A DNA stretch of 64,000 nucleotides, from contig NZ_LYPF02000007.1 in NCBI RefSeq assembly GCF_001661595.2, positions 124,001 through 188,000 of the forward strand, read 5' to 3'. Below, piece by piece: positions 42,858 through 52,980 of the stretch. Position numbers and translations under genes: made by a program. This stretch comes from Crocinitomix algicola. GTDB lineage: Bacteria > Bacteroidota > Bacteroidia > Flavobacteriales_D > Crocinitomicaceae. The notes beneath the pieces are model-generated. The model had not been told where the DNA came from and did not search any database. It saw nothing but the letters and a program-made list of their open reading frames with translations. The first letter of the stretch is position 1, and each line of letters starts with the position of its first letter.

Positions 42858-45800
42858 ATGATGCAAAGAATACTATTTCTGATTATAATTTTTGTGGGGA
42901 GCTTTGCTTTTGGGCAAACCGCTTCAGTCGAACTACGAGCTTCGGTAGGAGATGATGATACAGGTAAATCGTTAGGTGGAGCAACAATTGAAGTGTACAA
43001 AGGAGGGCAGTTATTTGCTTCGGAATCATCAAAGTCCAATGGGAAAGTGGATCCAATTGATTTGCCAGTTTGCATTGGGTGTACTTACACGATTAAGATT
43101 AAAAAAGAAGGTTACGTTACTAAAACAGCGATTTTGGATGCGCACAGTGATTATCCAGAGGAAGTTCCTCCAGGAGCTCAAATTCAAAAATTTGATGTTT
43201 CCATATTTCAAGGTGTTGAAGGAGTTGATTTTTCGTTTTTGGATAGAGAGCCCATGGTGGAATTTAAGGTGGACGCTTATGGAGTTGTGACATATGATCA
43301 GAAAAAGATAAACGTCATGACAGACAAAATCAAAAAACTCCGAAAAGAAATGGAGGAGAAAAAGGAGCAATTGGCAAAGGAGGAAGAAGCAAAGGCTAAA
43401 TTAGAAGCTGATTTTAGTGCCTATGTTGCAGCTGGTGATGACGCTGTTTCTAAATCTGATTTTGAGCGGGCAATTGAGCAATATAAATTAGCCTTAGGTC
43501 TCAAGCCAGACGACCAACCTACAAAAAATAAATTGTCTGATGCTGAAATAAAATTAGAAGAATTGCGCGCTGCGGAAGAACTTGAGAAACAATTTGGGGA
43601 ATTGATGACAAAAGCGAAAGAGGCTTATACTAATGAAGAGTTAGAAAAAGCACTTGATTTGTATAAGCAAGCTTCGAGTTTAAAAAAGAATGAAGCATTG
43701 CCTAAAGAGCGAATAAAGGAAATTGAAGAAAAAATTGCAACTCAAAAAGCAAACGCAGAGAAATTTGAGGCTTTAGTGAAAGAAGGAGATCAAGCTGCAT
43801 CTTCAAAAGATTTCGATAATGCTATTGATAAATATGAAGCGGCCTTAGTATTGAAAAAAGAGAAAAGCGTTGAGGATAAAATTGAAGCCGTAAAAAAAGA
43901 AAAAGAAGCGGCATTAGCTGCGGAAGAAGAGGAGAAGGCAAAACAAAAGGAGTTTGATGAATTAATAGCAAAGGCGGATGGAGAGTTTGACGCCAAAAAA
44001 CTGGATGACGCTGTTAAAAATTATTCGGCTGCACTTGAAATTTTTTCAGATAATGCCCATGCCAAATCTCGTCTTGAAGAAATTGAAAAATTGAAAGCCG
44101 CAGAAAAGGCCGCTGCCGAAAAAGCGGCAGAAGAAGAGGCGACTTTTAATCGTTTGTTGGAGGAAGGGAAAGAAAAAATTAATCAACGAGAATGGTCAGA
44201 TGCATTGGCGAAATACAAAGAAGCATTGAAGTACAAGCCGAATGATAAAACAGCGCTTGATCAAATTGACTTCATAAAAAAGGAACAAGAAAAAGAAGCA
44301 GCAGAGGAAAAACTCGATGAAGCGTATAATGCTTTTATGGCTGAAGCAAAAGATTTGTTTGAAGCAGAGAAGTATGAAGAGGCAAAATCAAAATATAACG
44401 AGGCTTTAGGCGTGAAAAAAGATGAACAAGAACCTAAAGATCAAATAGCAAAAATAGAACAACTTATAGCTGATGCAGAAAAGGCCAAAGAATTAGAAGC
44501 GAATTATAAACAATTCATTTCTGAAGGTAATGCGGCAAAAGACCGAAAAGATTATGCAGCTGCAATCGACTCCTATAATAAAGCACTTGAGAATAAGCCG
44601 GAAGATGAGCTGGCAAAAACGAAAATAGCCGAAGTAAATGCAATAATTGAGAAGGATAAGGCAGCGGCAGAAGCAGCGGCTAAATTTGCAGAATTCGTGA
44701 GTACAGCTGAACAGGCGTTTAATGCCAAAAACTATGATGAAGCCAAGTTGAATTATAATAAAGCGCTAGAGATTAAAGATGATCCAAGTGTTAGGGATGA
44801 AATAAAGAAAATAGATGATTTAATTGCTAAAAGTCAAAGTGAGGCTGAGACAAAGGCAAAATACGAAGCCGCAATAAAAGAGGCAGACGGATTTTATGAT
44901 TCCAACAACCTAGAGGAAGCACTGGAAGCGTACAAACGAGCATTTTCTATTTTAGAAGAAGATCATCCCAAAAAAAGAATATCGGAACTAAATGAAAAGA
45001 TTGCAGATCAAAAAGCTGCGGAAGAAAAAGAAGCACTGTTTGCTGAGTATAAAAATAATGGTGAAGTCGCCTTTAATGATAAAAAATATAAAGAAGCGTT
45101 AGAGCACTATCAAAATGCGATAAATACCAAACCCGATGCGGAAATAACTCAAAGAATTGGAGAAATAAGAACCTTGATAGAAGAACAAGAAGCTAACCAA
45201 GAGTTGAGAGCAAAATATGACGAACTGATTGCATTAGGTAATGCAGAATTTCAGAATAAAAATTATAAGGTGGCACGGGCAACCTATAAAGAGGCGCGTG
45301 ATGTACTAGGAAGTGAGACATACCCTGATGAGAAAATAGCAGAAATTGATGAAATATTGGCGAAAGCTGCCAATGCAGAAGTCGAAGCAAAATATCAAGA
45401 AATAATATCCCAAGCAGATGATTTATTTGACGCTAAAAAGTTGGATCAAGCAAAGCCACTCTACGCAAAAGCGCTGAACGTTAAAGATGGAGATGCATAT
45501 GCTCAAGAACGAATTGATGAAATTGTGCGTTTAAAAAATGAAATGGCGAATGCAGCAGCAGAGGAAGAACGACTTGAAGAGGAATATCAAGCATTGATCG
45601 TTGATGCAGATCGTGCACGTGACGCAGAAAATTGGAAATTAGCACTGGAAAAATACAATGAAGCTTTATCGAAAAAGCCGAGCGAAACATACCCGGTTTT
45701 AGAGATCGAAAAGGTGAAGTCCAAAATGGGCGCGGCTGAATTAGAAGCAGAAAAAGAAGCAGAGTATGAACGGTTAATTGATCAGGCAGATAAGTCATTT

Positions 45801-48086
45801 GACGCTCAGGATTATATCGAAGCGATTAAAAATTATGAATTGGCATTAGCGATAAAAGAAAATGAATCTTATCCAAAAGAAAAGATTGAAAGTGCTAAAA
45901 ACTTTATTCAGTTAGAGTCGGAAAATGAGGCAGAGGCCGCCTATCAAAAAATCCTTGATGTTGCTCAGGAAAAATTTGATGCCAAAAATTATGATAAGGC
46001 ATTGGAGCTGTATTTAAGGGCGCAAAAAACAAAACCGTCCGACCCACTTCCGCAACAGCGAATTGATGAGATAAATCAAGCGAAGAATCGCCAGAATGAA
46101 GATGATGCATTGGAGGAAAAGTATGAAGACCTCATTAAGGAAGCCGATTATCAGTTTGAAAAAGGAGATTGGGATAAAGCTATTGGTCCATACACCGAAG
46201 CTTACAATCTTTTTAACCGTGATTATCCCAAAAATCAAATTGAAAAATGCAAGGCGTCAATGCAAGCAGCATCAGATAAAACAGCAGAAAAAAATTACCG
46301 TAAAATTATTAAAGCTGGTGACGATAACTTTGCAAAAGCGAAATATGAAAAAGCAAAAGAATATTATGAACGGGCTATCGGAATAAAGCCAACGGATCAA
46401 TATCCAAAAGAACAGTTAGTAGAAATTGACAAAATTTTAAATCCTCAAAATTATACAGCCGGTCAACCTTTGTTAAAGGATTATGGTAAGCCAAACACAT
46501 CTGTTTCATCTGTCGATGTTGACGCGATGTTGAGGGAAGCTGAGGAGAAGCGTAAGTCTATTTCTGCTAATAAAGTGGAGGGCATACAAGTTGATGCGTT
46601 GGAAGCTGAGCGCTTGAAAGACGAAGAACAAGAAAACTACAGCCAAAATACTCGAACGGATGTTGTTGAACTGGAAGAGACAATTGACGATTTTGCAGGT
46701 GAAGCTGATGAGGAGCGTAAAGATGCGGCAGGCAAAGTTGAGGAGATGGGAACGGTATTGAATGAGGAGGATGTTGTTCGCACGAAAATGAATGATAATG
46801 ATGTTCAGCTTCAAACCCAGGTTGTAAATAACCTGAATAGGGAGATGGATGAACGTGATGAGGAAAGTGATTTAGGAAGGGAAGAATATTTACTTGATGT
46901 GGATGCCATTCGCGCTGAAATTGTCTTAGAGTCGGAGTTGGAAGATGCGAGTCAAACCAACGCTACAATGGATCAAAAAGAGTATGTGGAGCGAGAAACG
47001 AAAGCACGGATTGATTCAGACGAGCTGAGTGACTTGGATCGAAAAAATACTGAAGTACGCGTTGAGGATTTTGATGTAGAGTTGATTAATGAAGCGAATG
47101 AAAACACCTGGGATCAGGAGGACGTTGTGATGCAAGTAAAAGATGGAGCGGAATATTTAGTAGACATTCAAACTGCATCAGATGTCGAAGAAAATTTAAA
47201 ACGAGTGGAAAGTGCCCAAAAGGTACAAGATGAGACCCAAACTAGAATTTCAGTTGAAGGAAATCGAGTAGATAATCAATACGATGTAAATATTTCATCA
47301 AAAAAATATACAGAAAGTGTCATTGATGATATCGATATTGAAACGGCTGCTAGCGATATTCCACGACAGGAAATGGAGGTTTTTTCAGAAGGTCAACAGG
47401 TTGAAGGAATAGAGGTAGTGGACCAATTACAGGTTGAGCAGGAGAATGAATTGCATCACACAGATAAATTTGTTGAGGAATTAGAATATGATATTGTGGA
47501 TGAAAGTAAAGCTGCCGAATCTAACCGTGAAGGGTATGAACTTACTGTAGATAAAATTAAAGAAGATCAGAATTTATACCTGGAAGGGGAGGAGAGTGAT
47601 ATAGAGAATGAAAGTCATAGCACAGTTAATTATTTAGAGGATGAATTAAAGGAGCGTACTGATAATATCAAGTCTGCAGATGAAAATGCTGATGAAACGA
47701 TTGATGCTACTGGTGATCAGGTTGATGATATGCGCGCAGAGAACAATAAAATTGAAGGGGAAAATAAAGTAGAACAAGAAGCTGTTGAAGATTATGTCGG
47801 TGATTTAAAAGAAATTGACGTAAATAAAATTACCGAACAGATGAAGAATCAACTCGGCGAAAAGTACCCGGAAGGAGTTACAGAAGAGATTTATACCATT
47901 AATGATGAGGACGGTTTATTGGTTTCTTATATTGTACGGCGCGTAGTGGTGCGAAATGGGGCTGGTAATGTGTATGAAAAATCGCAATCAAGATTTGGAA
48001 CTGCAACTTATACCTGTAATGGGCAAGGAATAACTGAATTTCAATGGCAAGATGAAACAGAATCTGCCGATTTGGTAAGGAATTAA
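42858..48086 (+). CDS. Giant exported TPR-like repeat protein with acidic coiled-coil tail
   Basis: 1742 residues. Signal peptide ending FGQ (1-20); a carboxypeptidase-regulatory-like Ig domain (about 22-120, with GYVTKTAILDAHSDYPEEVP); a short coiled coil; then 17 repeats of about 60 residues (about 187-1205). Each repeat is a TPR-like helical pair (for example YDEAKLNYNKALEIK) followed by a charged helix that links to the next. Residues about 1205-1640 are strongly acidic, with little hydrophobic content, and look like a further coiled coil or disordered region. A compact C-terminal domain (YPEGVTEEIYTINDEDGLLVS, then FGTATYTCNGQGITEF) closes it. No enzymatic motif is seen. I suggest a periplasmic or surface scaffold; no known gene name can be given. 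Confidence 0.9.
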   Translation: MMQRILFLIIIFVGSFAFGQTASVELRASVGDDDTGKSLGGATIEVYKGGQLFASESSKSNGKVDPIDLPVCIGCTYTIKIKKEGYVTKTAILDAHSDYPEEVPPGAQIQKFDVSIFQGVEGVDFSFLDREPMVEFKVDAYGVVTYDQKKINVMTDKIKKLRKEMEEKKEQLAKEEEAKAKLEADFSAYVAAGDDAVSKSDFERAIEQYKLALGLKPDDQPTKNKLSDAEIKLEELRAAEELEKQFGELMTKAKEAYTNEELEKALDLYKQASSLKKNEALPKERIKEIEEKIATQKANAEKFEALVKEGDQAASSKDFDNAIDKYEAALVLKKEKSVEDKIEAVKKEKEAALAAEEEEKAKQKEFDELIAKADGEFDAKKLDDAVKNYSAALEIFSDNAHAKSRLEEIEKLKAAEKAAAEKAAEEEATFNRLLEEGKEKINQREWSDALAKYKEALKYKPNDKTALDQIDFIKKEQEKEAAEEKLDEAYNAFMAEAKDLFEAEKYEEAKSKYNEALGVKKDEQEPKDQIAKIEQLIADAEKAKELEANYKQFISEGNAAKDRKDYAAAIDSYNKALENKPEDELAKTKIAEVNAIIEKDKAAAEAAAKFAEFVSTAEQAFNAKNYDEAKLNYNKALEIKDDPSVRDEIKKIDDLIAKSQSEAETKAKYEAAIKEADGFYDSNNLEEALEAYKRAFSILEEDHPKKRISELNEKIADQKAAEEKEALFAEYKNNGEVAFNDKKYKEALEHYQNAINTKPDAEITQRIGEIRTLIEEQEANQELRAKYDELIALGNAEFQNKNYKVARATYKEARDVLGSETYPDEKIAEIDEILAKAANAEVEAKYQEIISQADDLFDAKKLDQAKPLYAKALNVKDGDAYAQERIDEIVRLKNEMANAAAEEERLEEEYQALIVDADRARDAENWKLALEKYNEALSKKPSETYPVLEIEKVKSKMGAAELEAEKEAEYERLIDQADKSFDAQDYIEAIKNYELALAIKENESYPKEKIESAKNFIQLESENEAEAAYQKILDVAQEKFDAKNYDKALELYLRAQKTKPSDPLPQQRIDEINQAKNRQNEDDALEEKYEDLIKEADYQFEKGDWDKAIGPYTEAYNLFNRDYPKNQIEKCKASMQAASDKTAEKNYRKIIKAGDDNFAKAKYEKAKEYYERAIGIKPTDQYPKEQLVEIDKILNPQNYTAGQPLLKDYGKPNTSVSSVDVDAMLREAEEKRKSISANKVEGIQVDALEAERLKDEEQENYSQNTRTDVVELEETIDDFAGEADEERKDAAGKVEEMGTVLNEEDVVRTKMNDNDVQLQTQVVNNLNREMDERDEESDLGREEYLLDVDAIRAEIVLESELEDASQTNATMDQKEYVERETKARIDSDELSDLDRKNTEVRVEDFDVELINEANENTWDQEDVVMQVKDGAEYLVDIQTASDVEENLKRVESAQKVQDETQTRISVEGNRVDNQYDVNISSKKYTESVIDDIDIETAASDIPRQEMEVFSEGQQVEGIEVVDQLQVEQENELHHTDKFVEELEYDIVDESKAAESNREGYELTVDKIKEDQNLYLEGEESDIENESHSTVNYLEDELKERTDNIKSADENADETIDATGDQVDDMRAENNKIEGENKVEQEAVEDYVGDLKEIDVNKITEQMKNQLGEKYPEGVTEEIYTINDEDGLLVSYIVRRVVVRNGAGNVYEKSQSRFGTATYTCNGQGITEFQWQDETESADLVRN

Positions 48087-49247: not shown

Positions 49248-49859
49248 ATGTCATTCAAAAAAATTAATAAAAATCTGCTTAAAAAAATGCGTAGCGTAGG
49301 AATAGAAGATCCTACGACGTTGCAAGCTGAGTTAATTCCAAAAATAAAAAGTGGGGCTCATGTATTTGGAATTGGAGGTGAAGGAGCAGGGAAAACAGAA
49401 ACGATTATTATCAGTACCCTACAACGGATTCAAATGCGAGCTCAAGGCGATAATCCAACGGCGTTAATTTTTGTAAAAGATAAAGCCGCTGTTTTAGCTT
49501 TGGAGGAACGTTTCAAGCCTTATGTGGAATTTAGTGATGTGCGGGTAAGAACAGCGTATGAGGAAAGGATTATCAATCATCAAAAGGATGAAATTTATTT
49601 GGGAGCAGATATTGTTATTGCAACACCGAAGCGATTGAGTAAGTTATATTTTTTAAACGGAATAAATTTAATGGAGCTAAAAATGATTGTTGTTGAAGAT
49701 GCAGAGTTTTTAGTGGGTACAGATCAGCATACAGATATTCATCGCATTACAGAATCAATAAAGGCACAGCATGTCGTTTTTGCGAGCGCTTGGACAGATC
49801 ATTTGGAAAAGCTAAAAGATTTGTTTATGGCTAATGCTCAAATTGTTAAGGTAGATTAA
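49248..49859 (+). CDS. Half-length DEAD-box-like ATPase (first RecA domain only)
   Basis: 203 residues. A Q-motif-like start (GIEDPTTLQAELIPKI) is followed by motif I GGEGAGKTE, motif Ib-like ATPKRLSKL, a changed motif II VVEDAEF (normally DEAD) and a changed motif III ASAW (normally SAT). The second RecA domain is missing, and the gene ends normally with its stop shared with the fur-like gene (TTAA, 49856-49859). It starts 10 bases after apbE. It may bind RNA or ATP, but full helicase activity is unlikely. No frameshift relic of a second domain is present downstream. Confidence 0.8.
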   Translation: MSFKKINKNLLKKMRSVGIEDPTTLQAELIPKIKSGAHVFGIGGEGAGKTETIIISTLQRIQMRAQGDNPTALIFVKDKAAVLALEERFKPYVEFSDVRVRTAYEERIINHQKDEIYLGADIVIATPKRLSKLYFLNGINLMELKMIVVEDAEFLVGTDQHTDIHRITESIKAQHVVFASAWTDHLEKLKDLFMANAQIVKVD

Positions 49860-50254
49860 GCACAGTTTTTACAAATTCCTTTTGCTTGTATTTCTACAGC
49901 ATCAATTTGGTACCCTTTAAGGTTGATTTCCGGATAATCATCTATATCCAAACAGAATATTTCAGCACAACTATTACATCGAAAGTGAATATGTTGATGT
50001 TGATGTTCTTTGGCATTGCAGTTGTCGTGGCATAATGCAAGCTTTTTGATATTGCCAGGCATTGTGATTTCATGAATAATTCCCTTTTCTATGAATGTTT
50101 TAATCGTTCGATAAAGAGTTATCCGATCAAATTCGCCAAGTTCATTTTCTATTTGTTCTGTTGAAATCGCATTTTTATGTTGTTCAAAAATGGTTAAAAC
50201 AGCTAGTCTAAAGTCTGTTACGCGGAGTTTTTTGGATCGGAGTAAGTTTTTCAT
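49856..50254 (-). CDS. Fur-family metal-responsive repressor (Zur-like candidate)
   Basis: 132 residues from ATG 50254 (MKNLLRSKKLRVTDFRL); longer in-frame versions run through the operator region and are unlikely. The winged helix (ISTEQIENELGEFDRITLYRTIKTFIEKGIIHEI) is followed by a metal-binding half: CHDNCNAKEHQHQHIHFRC, with CNSC and CKNC pairs for a structural zinc. It represses metal-uptake genes when its metal is bound. The divergent TonB receptor and two palindromes between them suggest it controls both. Zinc is the likeliest metal given the Cys/His-rich partner, but iron or another metal cannot be excluded. Confidence 0.87.
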   Translation of the reverse strand: MKNLLRSKKLRVTDFRLAVLTIFEQHKNAISTEQIENELGEFDRITLYRTIKTFIEKGIIHEITMPGNIKKLALCHDNCNAKEHQHQHIHFRCNSCAEIFCLDIDDYPEINLKGYQIDAVEIQAKGICKNCA

Positions 50255-50262
50255 AAAAATAA

Positions 50263-50279
50263 TTGCAACAGTATTGCAA
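50263..50279. promoter_or_regulatory. Palindromic operator 1 (Fur/Zur-box candidate)
   Basis: TTGCAACAGTATTGCAA: TTGCAA on both sides of a 5-base centre, inside the divergent regulator/receptor promoter. It covers the TTG at 50263-50265 that could serve as the receptor's -33 element (22-base spacer to the -7). Confidence 0.65.
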
Positions 50280-50287
50280 AAAGATAG

Positions 50288-50295
50288 TACATTTG
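50288..50295 (+). promoter_or_regulatory. -7 element of the TonB receptor promoter
   Basis: TACATTTG matches TAnnTTTG and lies 18 bases before the receptor ATG at 50314, implying a very short leader. It overlaps operator 2, so a bound repressor would block it. Confidence 0.5.
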
Positions 50296-50311
50296 CAACG
50301 GTATTGCAAAT
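50291..50311. promoter_or_regulatory. Palindromic operator 2 (Fur/Zur-box candidate)
   Basis: ATTTGCAA and TTGCAAAT form perfect 8-base arms around CGGTA. The centre lies 30 bases from that of operator 1, about three helical turns, so two dimers could bind the same face. It ends two bases before the receptor start codon. Confidence 0.7.
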
Positions 50312-50313
50312 AT

Positions 50314-52536
50314 ATGAAATTATTCTTTCTAAATATAGCGTTTTTTTGCTCGTGGATTGGTTTTGGGCAAACAATAAATATTACCGTATTGAATGAGGAG
50401 AATCAAACAATACCGTTTGCTTCTTGTTACGTTCAAGAGTTTGATGCGATGTATATCGCTGATTCAACAGGGAGAGTGAAACTAAAAGATGTCCCACCTG
50501 CTAATTATCATTTCGATTTTAACGCATATGGTTTCGATAAAGGACATTTGGATATTCGGATAAAGAATGATACTAGCTTTCAGTTTGTCTTGTTTGAGAA
50601 TCATCGTGAGCTGGATGAGTTGATCATAACACATACTGGCGAATTACAACGAGAAAATATCACCAACGTCGCTCATTTAAAAATTAATGAGGTTAATCAA
50701 ATCGCAACCACAACAATTGGACAAGCTTTAACTCAAATTCCGGGAGTATACGAAACTGGAATTGGAACGGGTATTAGTAAACCTGTTATTCGCGGTTTGT
50801 CTGGTAGTAGAGTGGTAACTTACATTAATTCATTACGAATTGAAAATCAACAATGGGGAGGTGATCACGGTTTGCCAATTACATCTTTAGGCGTAGGAGG
50901 TGTAGAGGTTATTAAAGGGCCGGCTTCTCTTTTATTTGGTGCAGATGCCTTAGGTGGTGTGCTTTATTTTGTAGATGAACCTTATGCTAAATCGAATAGT
51001 ACAGAGCTTAGTTTTAAATCACAGTTTGAATCAAATACTTTGGGTACTGTAAATGAACTAGGTTATAAGATTAATAAGAATAAAATAAGATTGAATGCCT
51101 TTTTTGGATATGACAACCATGCCGATTATCAGCTGAGTAATGGTAAATATGTGCAAAACTCAAGGTTTCATCAGTACTCCGGTAAGCTTGCGCTTGGCTA
51201 TAACACGGAGAAGTGGTTGGTAAATGTCCGGTATAATTTTTACAGAGGTCTGTTGGGGTTACCCGGACATACGCATGATAGTATCATTAATCCGGAAAGT
51301 TTTCAACGTGACGAGCAAAGTAGGGCGCATACCATCCCACAACAAGTAGCAACAAATCATTTTTTATCGGTAGAAAATAAGTTCTTTTTTGAAAAAGGTG
51401 AGTTAGTGGTTGGATTAGGAAATACAAACAATCATTTGGAAGAATTTGAAGAAAAAATTTTTACCCCAGCAATAAATATTAACTTAAATAATACCTTGCT
51501 TAATGCCAAGTTGAAGTATCAATTGTCTAAAAGAACAAAACTTGTAGTTGGTACTCAAGAAATGCTCCAGTTCAATAAAAATGCTCCCGGGGCTGAAGAG
51601 TTGATTATTCCAGATGCTCAAACATTAGATTATGGTGCTTTTGCTTTGTTGATGTCATCCATAAAAAAGTGGAAAATTCAGGGTGGAGCGAGGATTGATA
51701 ATCGGACAATTGAAACAAGAGGCTCGGAGTTTTACAATTCGTATACCGGTTATAATTTTGCTTTTGGATTGGCCCGTATTCGACCAAAATCAACCACACG
51801 CTTTAATGTTTCATCAGGATTCAGAGCGCCAACTAGTGCTGAATTACTTTCGGATGGAGTTCATCATGGTGCTTTTCGATATGAACGTGGAAATCAAGGG
51901 CTAAAAACAGAGAAAGGATTACAAGTTGACTTGAGTTATGCAGTGCATTTTTCAGATTTAGAATTGATTATCAACCCTTTTTATCATCGTGTATACGATT
52001 ATATTTATCTCCAAAAATCATCAGATTTGGTTGGAAGTTATCAAGTTTTCGACTATGTGCAAACGGATTTTGCTCAACTCTATGGAGTTGATTTTGGATT
52101 CCATTATCATCCTCATCGTGCACATTGGATGCATATTGAAACGAATTTTTCAACCATCTTCGCCGAAGATGAGTTTAAAAACGCACTTCCATTAATTCCA
52201 CAAAGTAGAATTAACAATCAAATTCGTGCAGATTTAAAAGCGCCGCGTTTCTTCAAAAAATTGAACTTGATTGTTCAGTACAATTATTCATTCCTCCAAG
52301 ATCGTGTTGGCATACTAGAAACACCTACGAACGATTATCATTTGGTGAATTTTGGGGCGAATGCGAAGTTGAAAGGAGAAAATCCAATAATAATTGGGAT
52401 TGGTGTCAATAATTTACTCAATCAAGAATATACTAATCATTTGTCAGGCCTAAAGAATATTGGACTGGCAAATCCAGGGAGAAATGTTTATCTCTCCTTT
52501 AAATATCAGTTTGCTAAACCTTTAAAATCAAAATAA
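50314..52536 (+). CDS. TonB-dependent outer-membrane receptor, probable metal transporter
   Basis: 740 residues from ATG 50314, which gives a signal peptide (MKLFFLNIAFFCSWIGFGQ); an upstream in-frame ATG lies inside the operators. A carboxypeptidase-like N-terminal domain (about 20-100) precedes the plug (IGQALTQIPGVYETGIGTGISKPVIRGLSGSRVVTYINSLRIENQQWGGDHGLP) and the 22-stranded barrel ending VYLSFKYQFAKPLKSK. His-rich loops such as FHYHPHRAHWMH suit a zinc or similar ligand. It sits under Fur-type operators and is followed by a Cys/His-rich lipoprotein 1 base later. ZnuD-like function is an inference. Confidence 0.9.
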   Translation: MKLFFLNIAFFCSWIGFGQTINITVLNEENQTIPFASCYVQEFDAMYIADSTGRVKLKDVPPANYHFDFNAYGFDKGHLDIRIKNDTSFQFVLFENHRELDELIITHTGELQRENITNVAHLKINEVNQIATTTIGQALTQIPGVYETGIGTGISKPVIRGLSGSRVVTYINSLRIENQQWGGDHGLPITSLGVGGVEVIKGPASLLFGADALGGVLYFVDEPYAKSNSTELSFKSQFESNTLGTVNELGYKINKNKIRLNAFFGYDNHADYQLSNGKYVQNSRFHQYSGKLALGYNTEKWLVNVRYNFYRGLLGLPGHTHDSIINPESFQRDEQSRAHTIPQQVATNHFLSVENKFFFEKGELVVGLGNTNNHLEEFEEKIFTPAININLNNTLLNAKLKYQLSKRTKLVVGTQEMLQFNKNAPGAEELIIPDAQTLDYGAFALLMSSIKKWKIQGGARIDNRTIETRGSEFYNSYTGYNFAFGLARIRPKSTTRFNVSSGFRAPTSAELLSDGVHHGAFRYERGNQGLKTEKGLQVDLSYAVHFSDLELIINPFYHRVYDYIYLQKSSDLVGSYQVFDYVQTDFAQLYGVDFGFHYHPHRAHWMHIETNFSTIFAEDEFKNALPLIPQSRINNQIRADLKAPRFFKKLNLIVQYNYSFLQDRVGILETPTNDYHLVNFGANAKLKGENPIIIGIGVNNLLNQEYTNHLSGLKNIGLANPGRNVYLSFKYQFAKPLKSK

Positions 52537-52537
52537 A

Positions 52538-52747
52538 ATGAGAAAAGTTAGATTAACAATTGGAATTGCTGCAGTAGCCTTAGCTGGATTAACAACATCA
52601 TGTAAAAAATGTCACGAATGTCATTATGATGGTCCTGATGGAGAAGTAGAATTAGGAGAAAAATGTGGAGACGATTTAGAAGCATTGGAAGATAATGGTT
52701 ATACAGTAGACGGAACAAACTATACTGTTCACTGTCACGAACATTAA
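52538..52747 (+). CDS. Small Cys/His-rich lipoprotein
   Basis: 69 residues. Signal and lipidated Cys22 are in GLTTSCKK. The mature part has four further Cys (25, 28, 43, 66) and five His (26, 29, 65, 67, 69), mostly in CHECH near the start and HCHEH at the end. Such clusters can bind zinc or copper. It starts 1 base after the TonB receptor gene, hence the same operon under the Fur-type operators. A periplasmic or surface metal carrier handing metal to or from the receptor is a reasonable guess, not shown. Confidence 0.8.
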   Translation: MRKVRLTIGIAAVALAGLTTSCKKCHECHYDGPDGEVELGEKCGDDLEALEDNGYTVDGTNYTVHCHEH

Positions 52748-52897: not shown

Positions 52898-52978
52898 GCC
52901 CGAGTGGCGGAACTGGTAGACGCGCACGACTCAAACTCGTGTTCCATTGGAGTGCCGGTTCGATTCCGGCCTCGGGTA
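52898..52978 (+). tRNA. tRNA-Leu (anticodon CAA)
   Basis: Acceptor stem GCCCGAG/CTCGGGT, D-arm with TGGTAGACGC, anticodon stem CACGA/TCGTG with loop CTCAAAC (anticodon CAA, codon UUG), a class II variable arm, and T-arm GCCGG-TTCGATT-CCGGC. CCA is not encoded. A terminator follows at once. The gene marks the left edge of the accessory region. Confidence 0.97.
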
Positions 52979-52980
52979 CA

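Follow-up and report, generated by a model that had tools for sequence, protein, structure and literature searches.

How bare zinc reaches the TonB-dependent receptors of Bacteroidota seems little described, and a locus of Crocinitomix algicola poses the question in compact form. It lies in a 64,000-nucleotide stretch of contig NZ_LYPF02000007.1 (hereafter the window, whose positions are used throughout) and consists of three genes:

49856..50254, minus strand: Zur-like Fur-family regulator, 132 residues, stop included (Pfam FUR match, profile match to 4mtd, invariant residues)
50314..52536, plus strand: ZnuD-like TonB-dependent receptor, 740 residues (NCBIfam ZnuD model, PDB profile match, fold)
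52538..52747, plus strand: lipoprotein, 69 residues, with a mature part of about 48 residues from C22 (reading, conserved residues)

An earlier reading of the sequence (the original prediction) had proposed a metal-uptake operon here, with a Fur-family regulator facing a TonB receptor and a tiny lipoprotein gene 1 base beyond it. Direct reading confirmed this layout. The regulator starts at an ATG at 50254 on the minus strand and runs for 132 codons to 49859, with its stop at 49856-49858; the receptor runs from an ATG at 50314 on the plus strand to a stop ending at 52536, and 1 base separates this stop from the lipoprotein ATG at 52538. Our reading, to which we assign a probability of roughly 0.57, is that the locus serves zinc uptake under the control of a Zur-type repressor and that the lipoprotein is a zinc co-receptor working at the cell surface.

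Which metal does the receptor take up? Its best NCBIfam match was the ZnuD model NF038289 (E 2.4e-41), at 142.2 bits against a cut-off of 950, and we therefore call it ZnuD-like rather than ZnuD. When a profile of 43 relatives was compared with the PDB, ZnuD was again the best match (E 1.6e-41; next 1.2e-20). Receptor residues D184, H185, and H517, invariant in the 43 receptors, align with Asp99, His100, and His499 of ZnuD (by our own count, with an offset of 14), which are given as zinc ligands in the portion of PMC4557270 available to us. E377 is also invariant; the alignment does not include the stretch that holds Glu340, the fourth ligand of ZnuD. The predicted structure (predicted local distance difference test, pLDDT, 87.8) was closest to ZnuD by Foldseek. 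VIA-align Z-scores were tied between ZnuD (39.6) and the heme receptor ChuA (39.0), so the fold alone does not choose the substrate.

The regulator matched Pfam FUR at 38.5 bits (cut-off 23.1), which places it in the Fur-family fold, and the best PDB match of a profile of 28 relatives was Zur of Escherichia coli (4mtd, E 5e-12). Residues H61, C75, C93, C96, C128, and C131 were invariant in the 28 sequences. Four of them (C93, C96, C128, and C131) form the two CxxC motifs of a structural Cys4 zinc site, and H61 and C75 align with His77 and Cys88 of E. coli Zur in the 4mtd profile alignment (own position count). The accessible part of a Zur review (PMC6103462) describes His77 and Cys88 as two sensory ligands and reports that C88S abolished zinc-responsive regulation; it also states that E. 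coli and actinobacterial Zur have no strictly conserved ligand in common. Among NCBIfam models, PerR, Zur, and Fur all matched weakly, with PerR first and slightly above Zur, and the E. coli Zur equivalog NF008646 scored 33.5 bits, well below its cut-off of 167. Because of this low score and the slightly higher PerR match, we use the label Zur-like: judged by its residues, the regulator appears to be a zinc-type member of the Fur family. The genome carries two further Fur-family genes, one of which has Fur models as its best NCBIfam matches, below their cut-offs. The other (L132, in C15), the third Fur-family regulator of this genome, has a similarly placed cysteine and lies beside ArsR-type and MerT genes and, by eye, a TonB receptor.

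The space between the regulator and receptor starts holds the following elements:

50263..50279, strand not assigned: distal Zur-type box TTGCAACAGTATTGCAA (palindrome, conserved in divergent loci)
50291..50311, strand not assigned: receptor-proximal Zur-type box ATTTGCAACGGTATTGCAAAT, core 50293-50309 (palindrome, conserved in divergent loci)
50288..50295, plus strand: putative -7 element TACATTTG (TAnnTTTG) for the receptor gene, which runs into the proximal box (register across loci)

The centres of the two palindromes are 30 base pairs (bp) apart. Pairs of TTGCAA arms separated by 4 to 8 bases occur at 9 places in the 3.7-megabase genome, against 2 for the reversed control, and among these 9 only the two window palindromes have a 5-base spacer. 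We then compared 17 divergent regulator/receptor loci, the window included, in which 34 sites gave the consensus WTGCAACANTGTTGCAW. At least one site with no more than two mismatches in the 12 arm bases was present in every one of the 17 divergent regions, and 14 regions had two; in 200 letter shuffles of the same regions, on average 0.1 regions had a site, and never more than 1 in 17. Spacing in the 14 two-site loci was 29-31 bp in 10, 38-40 bp in three, and 17 bp in one, and this predominance of 29-31 bp would fit binding mostly on the same face of the helix.

With the -7/-33 promoter consensus as quoted in the part of PMC2483708 used here, the proximal box was found to overlap TAnnTTTG in constant register, exactly in 11 of 17 loci and with at most one mismatch in 16. 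The same register at the distal box gave 1 and 2 of 17, respectively. The first TTG of the distal box may act as the -33 element for the receptor gene, and a minus-strand TATATTTG that runs into the proximal box could be a promoter element for the regulator gene; on that strand, the element in this register was exact in 7 of 17 loci at the box farther from the regulator. The original prediction had described two TTGCAA palindromes 30 bases apart that cover the receptor promoter, and had named their presence upstream of orthologous receptors as the check. The palindromes exceed chance in both controls, TACATTTG enters the proximal site, and the motif is present in all 17 divergent regulator/receptor regions. 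A zinc-type Fur regulator acting on a double operator over the receptor promoter is thus supported by sequence comparison, and control of the regulator over itself appears possible from the shared intergenic sites.

Genes behind the same box point to the same metal. In 59 genomes, that of C. algicola among them, the core TGCAAYANTRTTGCA had 44 matches, compared with 2 for the reversed pattern. In the C. algicola genome, exact sites beyond the present locus precede a COG0523 GTPase with a 553-bit match to the ZigA model (cut-off 600), another TonB receptor with a thioredoxin-like gene, and a pyridine-nucleotide oxidoreductase; there are also six one-mismatch sites, one of them before a MerC gene. 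A looser one-mismatch pattern gave 11 matches in this genome and 4 for the reversed control. Related genomes have exact sites before MerC genes (L111, L115, L124, L125), a COG0523 gene (L126), FolE (L118; after MerC in L125), a methyltransferase-ZIP pair (L108), an ATP-binding cassette (ABC) ATPase (L122; after MerC in L111), an oxidoreductase (L112), and additional TonB receptors accompanied by other proteins (L121, L123, L129). Zinc-related genes (COG0523, MerC, ZIP, FolE, and other receptors) thus share the box, as for Zur, several sites excepted. The earlier preference for zinc over copper is borne out, as far as sequence can tell, by the ZnuD-like receptor and by the ZigA-like COG0523, MerC, ZIP, and FolE genes. 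We also considered whether this repressor might control a ZnuABC importer in the same genome and rejected the idea: no box with up to two arm mismatches was found in the scanned stretches near its only ZnuA-family gene. This gene adjoins a DtxR-like gene (by eye), and given this neighbour and the lack of a box, it may belong to a manganese system. Likewise, no box within two arm mismatches was found in the stretch ahead of the ZIP operon of this genome.

What, then, does the lipoprotein do? Homologues were found in 24 of the 59 genomes, that of C. algicola included, and at 55 named loci titled mostly Crocinitomicaceae or Flavobacteriales. After removal of three loci that start at a contig edge (L161, L165, L177), the receptor gene lies immediately upstream at 51 of the 52 testable loci, with gaps of -11 to 107 nucleotides. 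A relative of the regulator was detected by tblastn at 29 of the 55 loci: upstream in divergent orientation at 18, downstream of the lipoprotein gene at 10, and elsewhere at 1. The expected co-occurrence of all three genes therefore holds for the receptor-lipoprotein pair and less so for the regulator.

Positions invariant in 53 lipoprotein sequences include C22, C25, C28, H29, C43, D45, E51, H65, C66, and H69. Within the CHECH and HCHEH clusters noted previously, C25, C28, H29, H65, C66, and H69 are constant, while H26 and H67 vary. Four weak homologues (L050-L053) keep the cysteine pattern, lack those histidines, and have no such receptor nearby, and for this reason the histidine triad seems the better candidate for a zinc site. 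We infer that the cysteines are structural and that H29, H65, and H69 bind zinc. The predicted model has two beta hairpins around a helix. No named counterpart was known at the outset, and none emerged: nothing scored above cut-off in Pfam or NCBIfam (sub-threshold PSCyt2, E 0.36, and RlpA, E 0.044), the profile had no significant PDB match (best E 1.1), the fold had no PDB match at E <= 0.001, and, in the open-licence literature searched, the titles and abstracts listed mentioned neither a Bacteroidota Zur box nor this lipoprotein. A phylum-wide search of 395 genomes, covering the best 15 candidates of each, gave clear matches only in the C. algicola genome and one other genome of the family, plus one further weak partial match. 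Pfam and NCBIfam searches of six variant or other lipoproteins gave no match.

Several small lipoproteins lie close to this family. A 78-residue variant at L204 follows a receptor that has D in place of K381; it shows a similar cysteine pattern with CxCH and without the C-terminal HCxxH. The C. algicola genome encodes another small lipoprotein (L078:2703-3014) with a CxxCxxC start, a later cysteine, and no Pfam match. The gene pair also occurs at loci titled Saccharospirillaceae, Chryseobacterium gleum, and Chitinophaga pinensis (L153, L157, L164, L165, L168); these titles of metagenome-assembled genomes may be wrong, the pair being of Flavobacteriales type.

Receptors with and without the lipoprotein were then compared. 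Three stretches of the receptor gene are concerned, and their sidedness is predicted by strand count in a model with 22 strands:

51268..51276, plus strand: codons of H319-T-H321 (GHTHD, extracellular loop 3); 43 of 43 lipoprotein-bearing receptors have the two histidines
51454..51456, plus strand: codon of K381 (extracellular loop 4), of all receptor positions the one that follows the lipoprotein most closely
52102..52134, plus strand: codons of H597-H607 (HYHPHRAHWMH), a histidine cluster in the periplasmic turn between strands 16 and 17

Among 200 genomes of the family, the receptor was present in 106 and a lipoprotein match (E <= 1e-20) in 90 of the 96 listed (our own count). This search took the best 30 lipoprotein candidates of each genome, so that absences elsewhere may be missed matches. 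Twenty receptor genomes (own count) had no lipoprotein match at this E-value; removal of two at a contig edge (G005, G589) and one with a variant cysteine lipoprotein (G010) left 17, in which absence was judged on at least 1.3 kilobases (kb) downstream of the receptor. Two of the 17 (G457, G463) have weak lipoprotein matches elsewhere in the genome. The lipoprotein-bearing set comprised the 42 receptors longer than 700 residues among the 51 at named loci, plus that of the window, 43 in all. The two sets thus come from different samples, the first from the family collection and the second from the named loci.

Of the 43 lipoprotein-bearing receptors, 42 have K381, as against none of the 17 without the lipoprotein (p 4.6e-14, relatedness ignored). 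A column scan gave H319 in 43/43 against 3/17 and H321 in 43/43 against 6/17, and the six columns that best track the lipoprotein all lie in predicted extracellular loops. In a quick tree built without loops 2, 3, and 4, lipoprotein presence switched at least nine times on supported branches, with gain and loss indistinguishable. K381 agrees with lipoprotein presence in all nine independent pairs (sign test, p 0.004), H319 in a mean of 6.8 (p 0.016), and H321 in a mean of 5.5 (p 0.06); no pair was opposed for any of the three. The adjacent regulator is visible at five of the 17 lipoprotein-less loci, and all five (L205, L206, L212, L213, L215) have a perfect-arm box, so that these loci look zinc-controlled too. 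These comparisons indicate that the lipoprotein is a true partner of the receptor, whose outer face would change with it; a surface zinc co-receptor would explain this most simply.

On this basis, we suggest the following mechanism. When zinc is replete, the repressor would occupy both boxes, about three helical turns apart, cover the -7 element, and keep the receptor and lipoprotein genes off; it would perhaps also cover its own promoter and shut the regulator gene. Zinc starvation would release it, and the ZnuD-like receptor and the lipoprotein would be produced together. At the outer mouth of the receptor, the lipoprotein would catch zinc, its cysteines holding the tiny fold and H29, H65, and H69 holding the metal, and it would work with loops 3 and 4 (H319, H321, K381), which would hand zinc to the buried D184, H185, and H517. 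TonB would then drive zinc inward past the histidine cluster of the periplasmic turn. The sequences themselves show the gene order, the boxes, their overlap with the promoter, the conserved residues, and the repeated co-variation with loop residues, whereas zinc binding, surface placement, direct contact, and hand-over are steps that we infer for the lipoprotein. A broader claim is put forward only tentatively, at less than even odds: that the family of approximately 48-residue lipoproteins in Crocinitomicaceae and related Flavobacteriales is a dedicated surface zinc co-receptor to which receptor loops 3 and 4 (H319, H321, K381) have been adapted, across at least nine switches.

Several observations weigh against a surface co-receptor under zinc control. 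The sidedness of the loops and the turn depends on our own strand counting in a predicted model, and the lipoprotein model itself has a mean pLDDT of 75.6 and no PDB match. The window lipoprotein carries no C-X-K-(D/E)2 surface-export signal (it has C-K-K-C-H-E); this signal of C. canimorsus follows the lipid cysteine in 13 of 55 sequences, the window's being in that sample, and is also missing, by eye, at L157. Both H319 and H321 persist in three of the 17 receptors without the lipoprotein, L148 has the lipoprotein and no K381, and a change of outer ligand, instead of contact, could account for the differences in the loops. The single exception to linkage is L147, where the lipoprotein gene is interrupted by an in-frame stop and no receptor was matched, and the weak homologue L049 keeps CH and CHxH (H29, H69) with no receptor within 4 kb. 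The regulator, at only 29 of 55 loci, is linked more loosely than the pair; its own promoter has an exact in-register element at the nearer box in 0 of 17 loci; and outside the regulator/receptor loci, an exact in-register TAnnTTTG was found at only 10 of 25 sites. The other five one-mismatch sites of the C. algicola genome lie in or at genes without an evident zinc role, and no gene evidently involved in zinc uptake accompanies the exact boxes at L110, L116 (a P-type ATPase gene), L120, and L128. Finally, the invariant histidine cluster of the periplasmic turn also fits a hand-over on the inner side.

This last point leads to the alternative that survives best, a periplasmic acceptor, in which the lipoprotein would dock at the H597-H607 turn, take zinc as it exits, and pass it to an inner-membrane importer. 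The missing export signal keeps this alternative alive, and the histidines of the turn, invariant and periplasmic by strand count, face no histidine in the part of ZnuD aligned with them. For ZnuD, a potential zinc site on the periplasmic side has been reported, according to the portion of PMC4557270 at hand. Against it, the cluster persists in the lipoprotein-less receptors (H597, H599, H601, and H607 in 17/17, H604 in 16/17), and it is the extracellular-loop residues that change instead. We therefore consider a periplasmic acceptor unlikely, if still a serious competitor. The original prediction had suggested an acceptor working with the receptor: the partnership stands on the 51/52 linkage, and a plain acceptor fits less well with tracking positions that lie in extracellular loops.

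A zinc buffer or store, in which a merely co-expressed lipoprotein would bind envelope zinc without touching the receptor, would suit a small protein rich in cysteine and histidine, present in two or three tandem copies near one receptor in G540 (C3:313098-313615), G545 (C2:30827-31703), and G555 (C24:31367-31846); the tight receptor linkage and the co-variation with specific receptor residues make it improbable. Another metal, copper or iron, with the regulator as Fur or a copper sensor, is very improbable: receptors for heme and copper (OprC) have the same fold, with comparable Z-scores, the regulator matches PerR, Zur, and Fur models only weakly with PerR first, and some boxes have no evident zinc-uptake gene, but sequence profiles favour ZnuD (1.6e-41 against 1.2e-20) and Zur, zinc-related genes lie behind the same box, and a separate regulator in this genome has its best NCBIfam matches to Fur models.

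The locus thus appears to combine two known kinds of system, Zur-controlled uptake of the ZnuD type and a Bacteroidota receptor-lipoprotein pair. Like ZnuD/TdfJ of Neisseria, the receptor is a plugged barrel with equivalents of D99, H100, and H499, and its loop-3 histidine pair falls within the stretch aligned to the HSHEYDDCHAD cluster of ZnuD. Unlike ZnuD, with which it shares about 20% identity, it has an HYHPHxxHxxH turn to which nothing corresponds in the part of ZnuD aligned there, a lipoprotein partner of its own, and an N-terminal region with a weak CarboxypepD_reg-like match below the Pfam cut-off. The regulator resembles E. coli-type Zur in its Fur fold, Cys4 site, His77/Cys88 equivalents, and zinc-related genes behind the box, and differs in the box itself, WTGCAACANTGTTGCAW, and in falling short of the equivalog model (33.5 against 167 bits). 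The ZigA-like zinc GTPase of COG0523, with the exact core box, stands outside this operon (553 against 600 bits).

BtuB-BtuG and SusC-SusD are known receptor-lipoprotein pairs of Bacteroidota that handle cobalamin or glycans, and BtuG is a large folded surface lid; the BtuB1-BtuG1 entry 8blw was among the fold matches listed for our receptor. The present pair shares with them a TonB receptor and a co-encoded lipoprotein, here proposed at the outer face. It differs in handling zinc, in lacking a clear export signal in the window protein, and in having about 48 mature residues instead of a large folded surface domain, so that the likeness would be one of working only. The main text of the Zur review, in the part accessible to us, contains no word starting with Bacteroid or Flavobacter (PMC6103462). 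If our reading is true, the lipoprotein would be exceptionally small for a receptor partner, and bare metal would reach a TonB receptor by a new route. A defined box, genes that share it, a receptor, and a partner with named residues make the question of zinc delivery directly testable, and the repeated co-variation of the lipoprotein with three loop residues offers a natural experiment on receptor-lipoprotein pairs.

More distant ZnuD-like receptors (L121, L123, L194, L198, L200, L202; approximately 23-30% identity) precede quite different lipoproteins, and the same box is found at two of them (L121, L123). This suggests that receptor subfamilies in Flavobacteriales may have their own lipoprotein partners. 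In the window itself, a tRNA-Leu gene (anticodon caa) lies close downstream of the lipoprotein gene at 52898-52979, and an open reading frame of 1742 residues at 42858-48086 contains repeated segments that look tetratricopeptide-like by eye.

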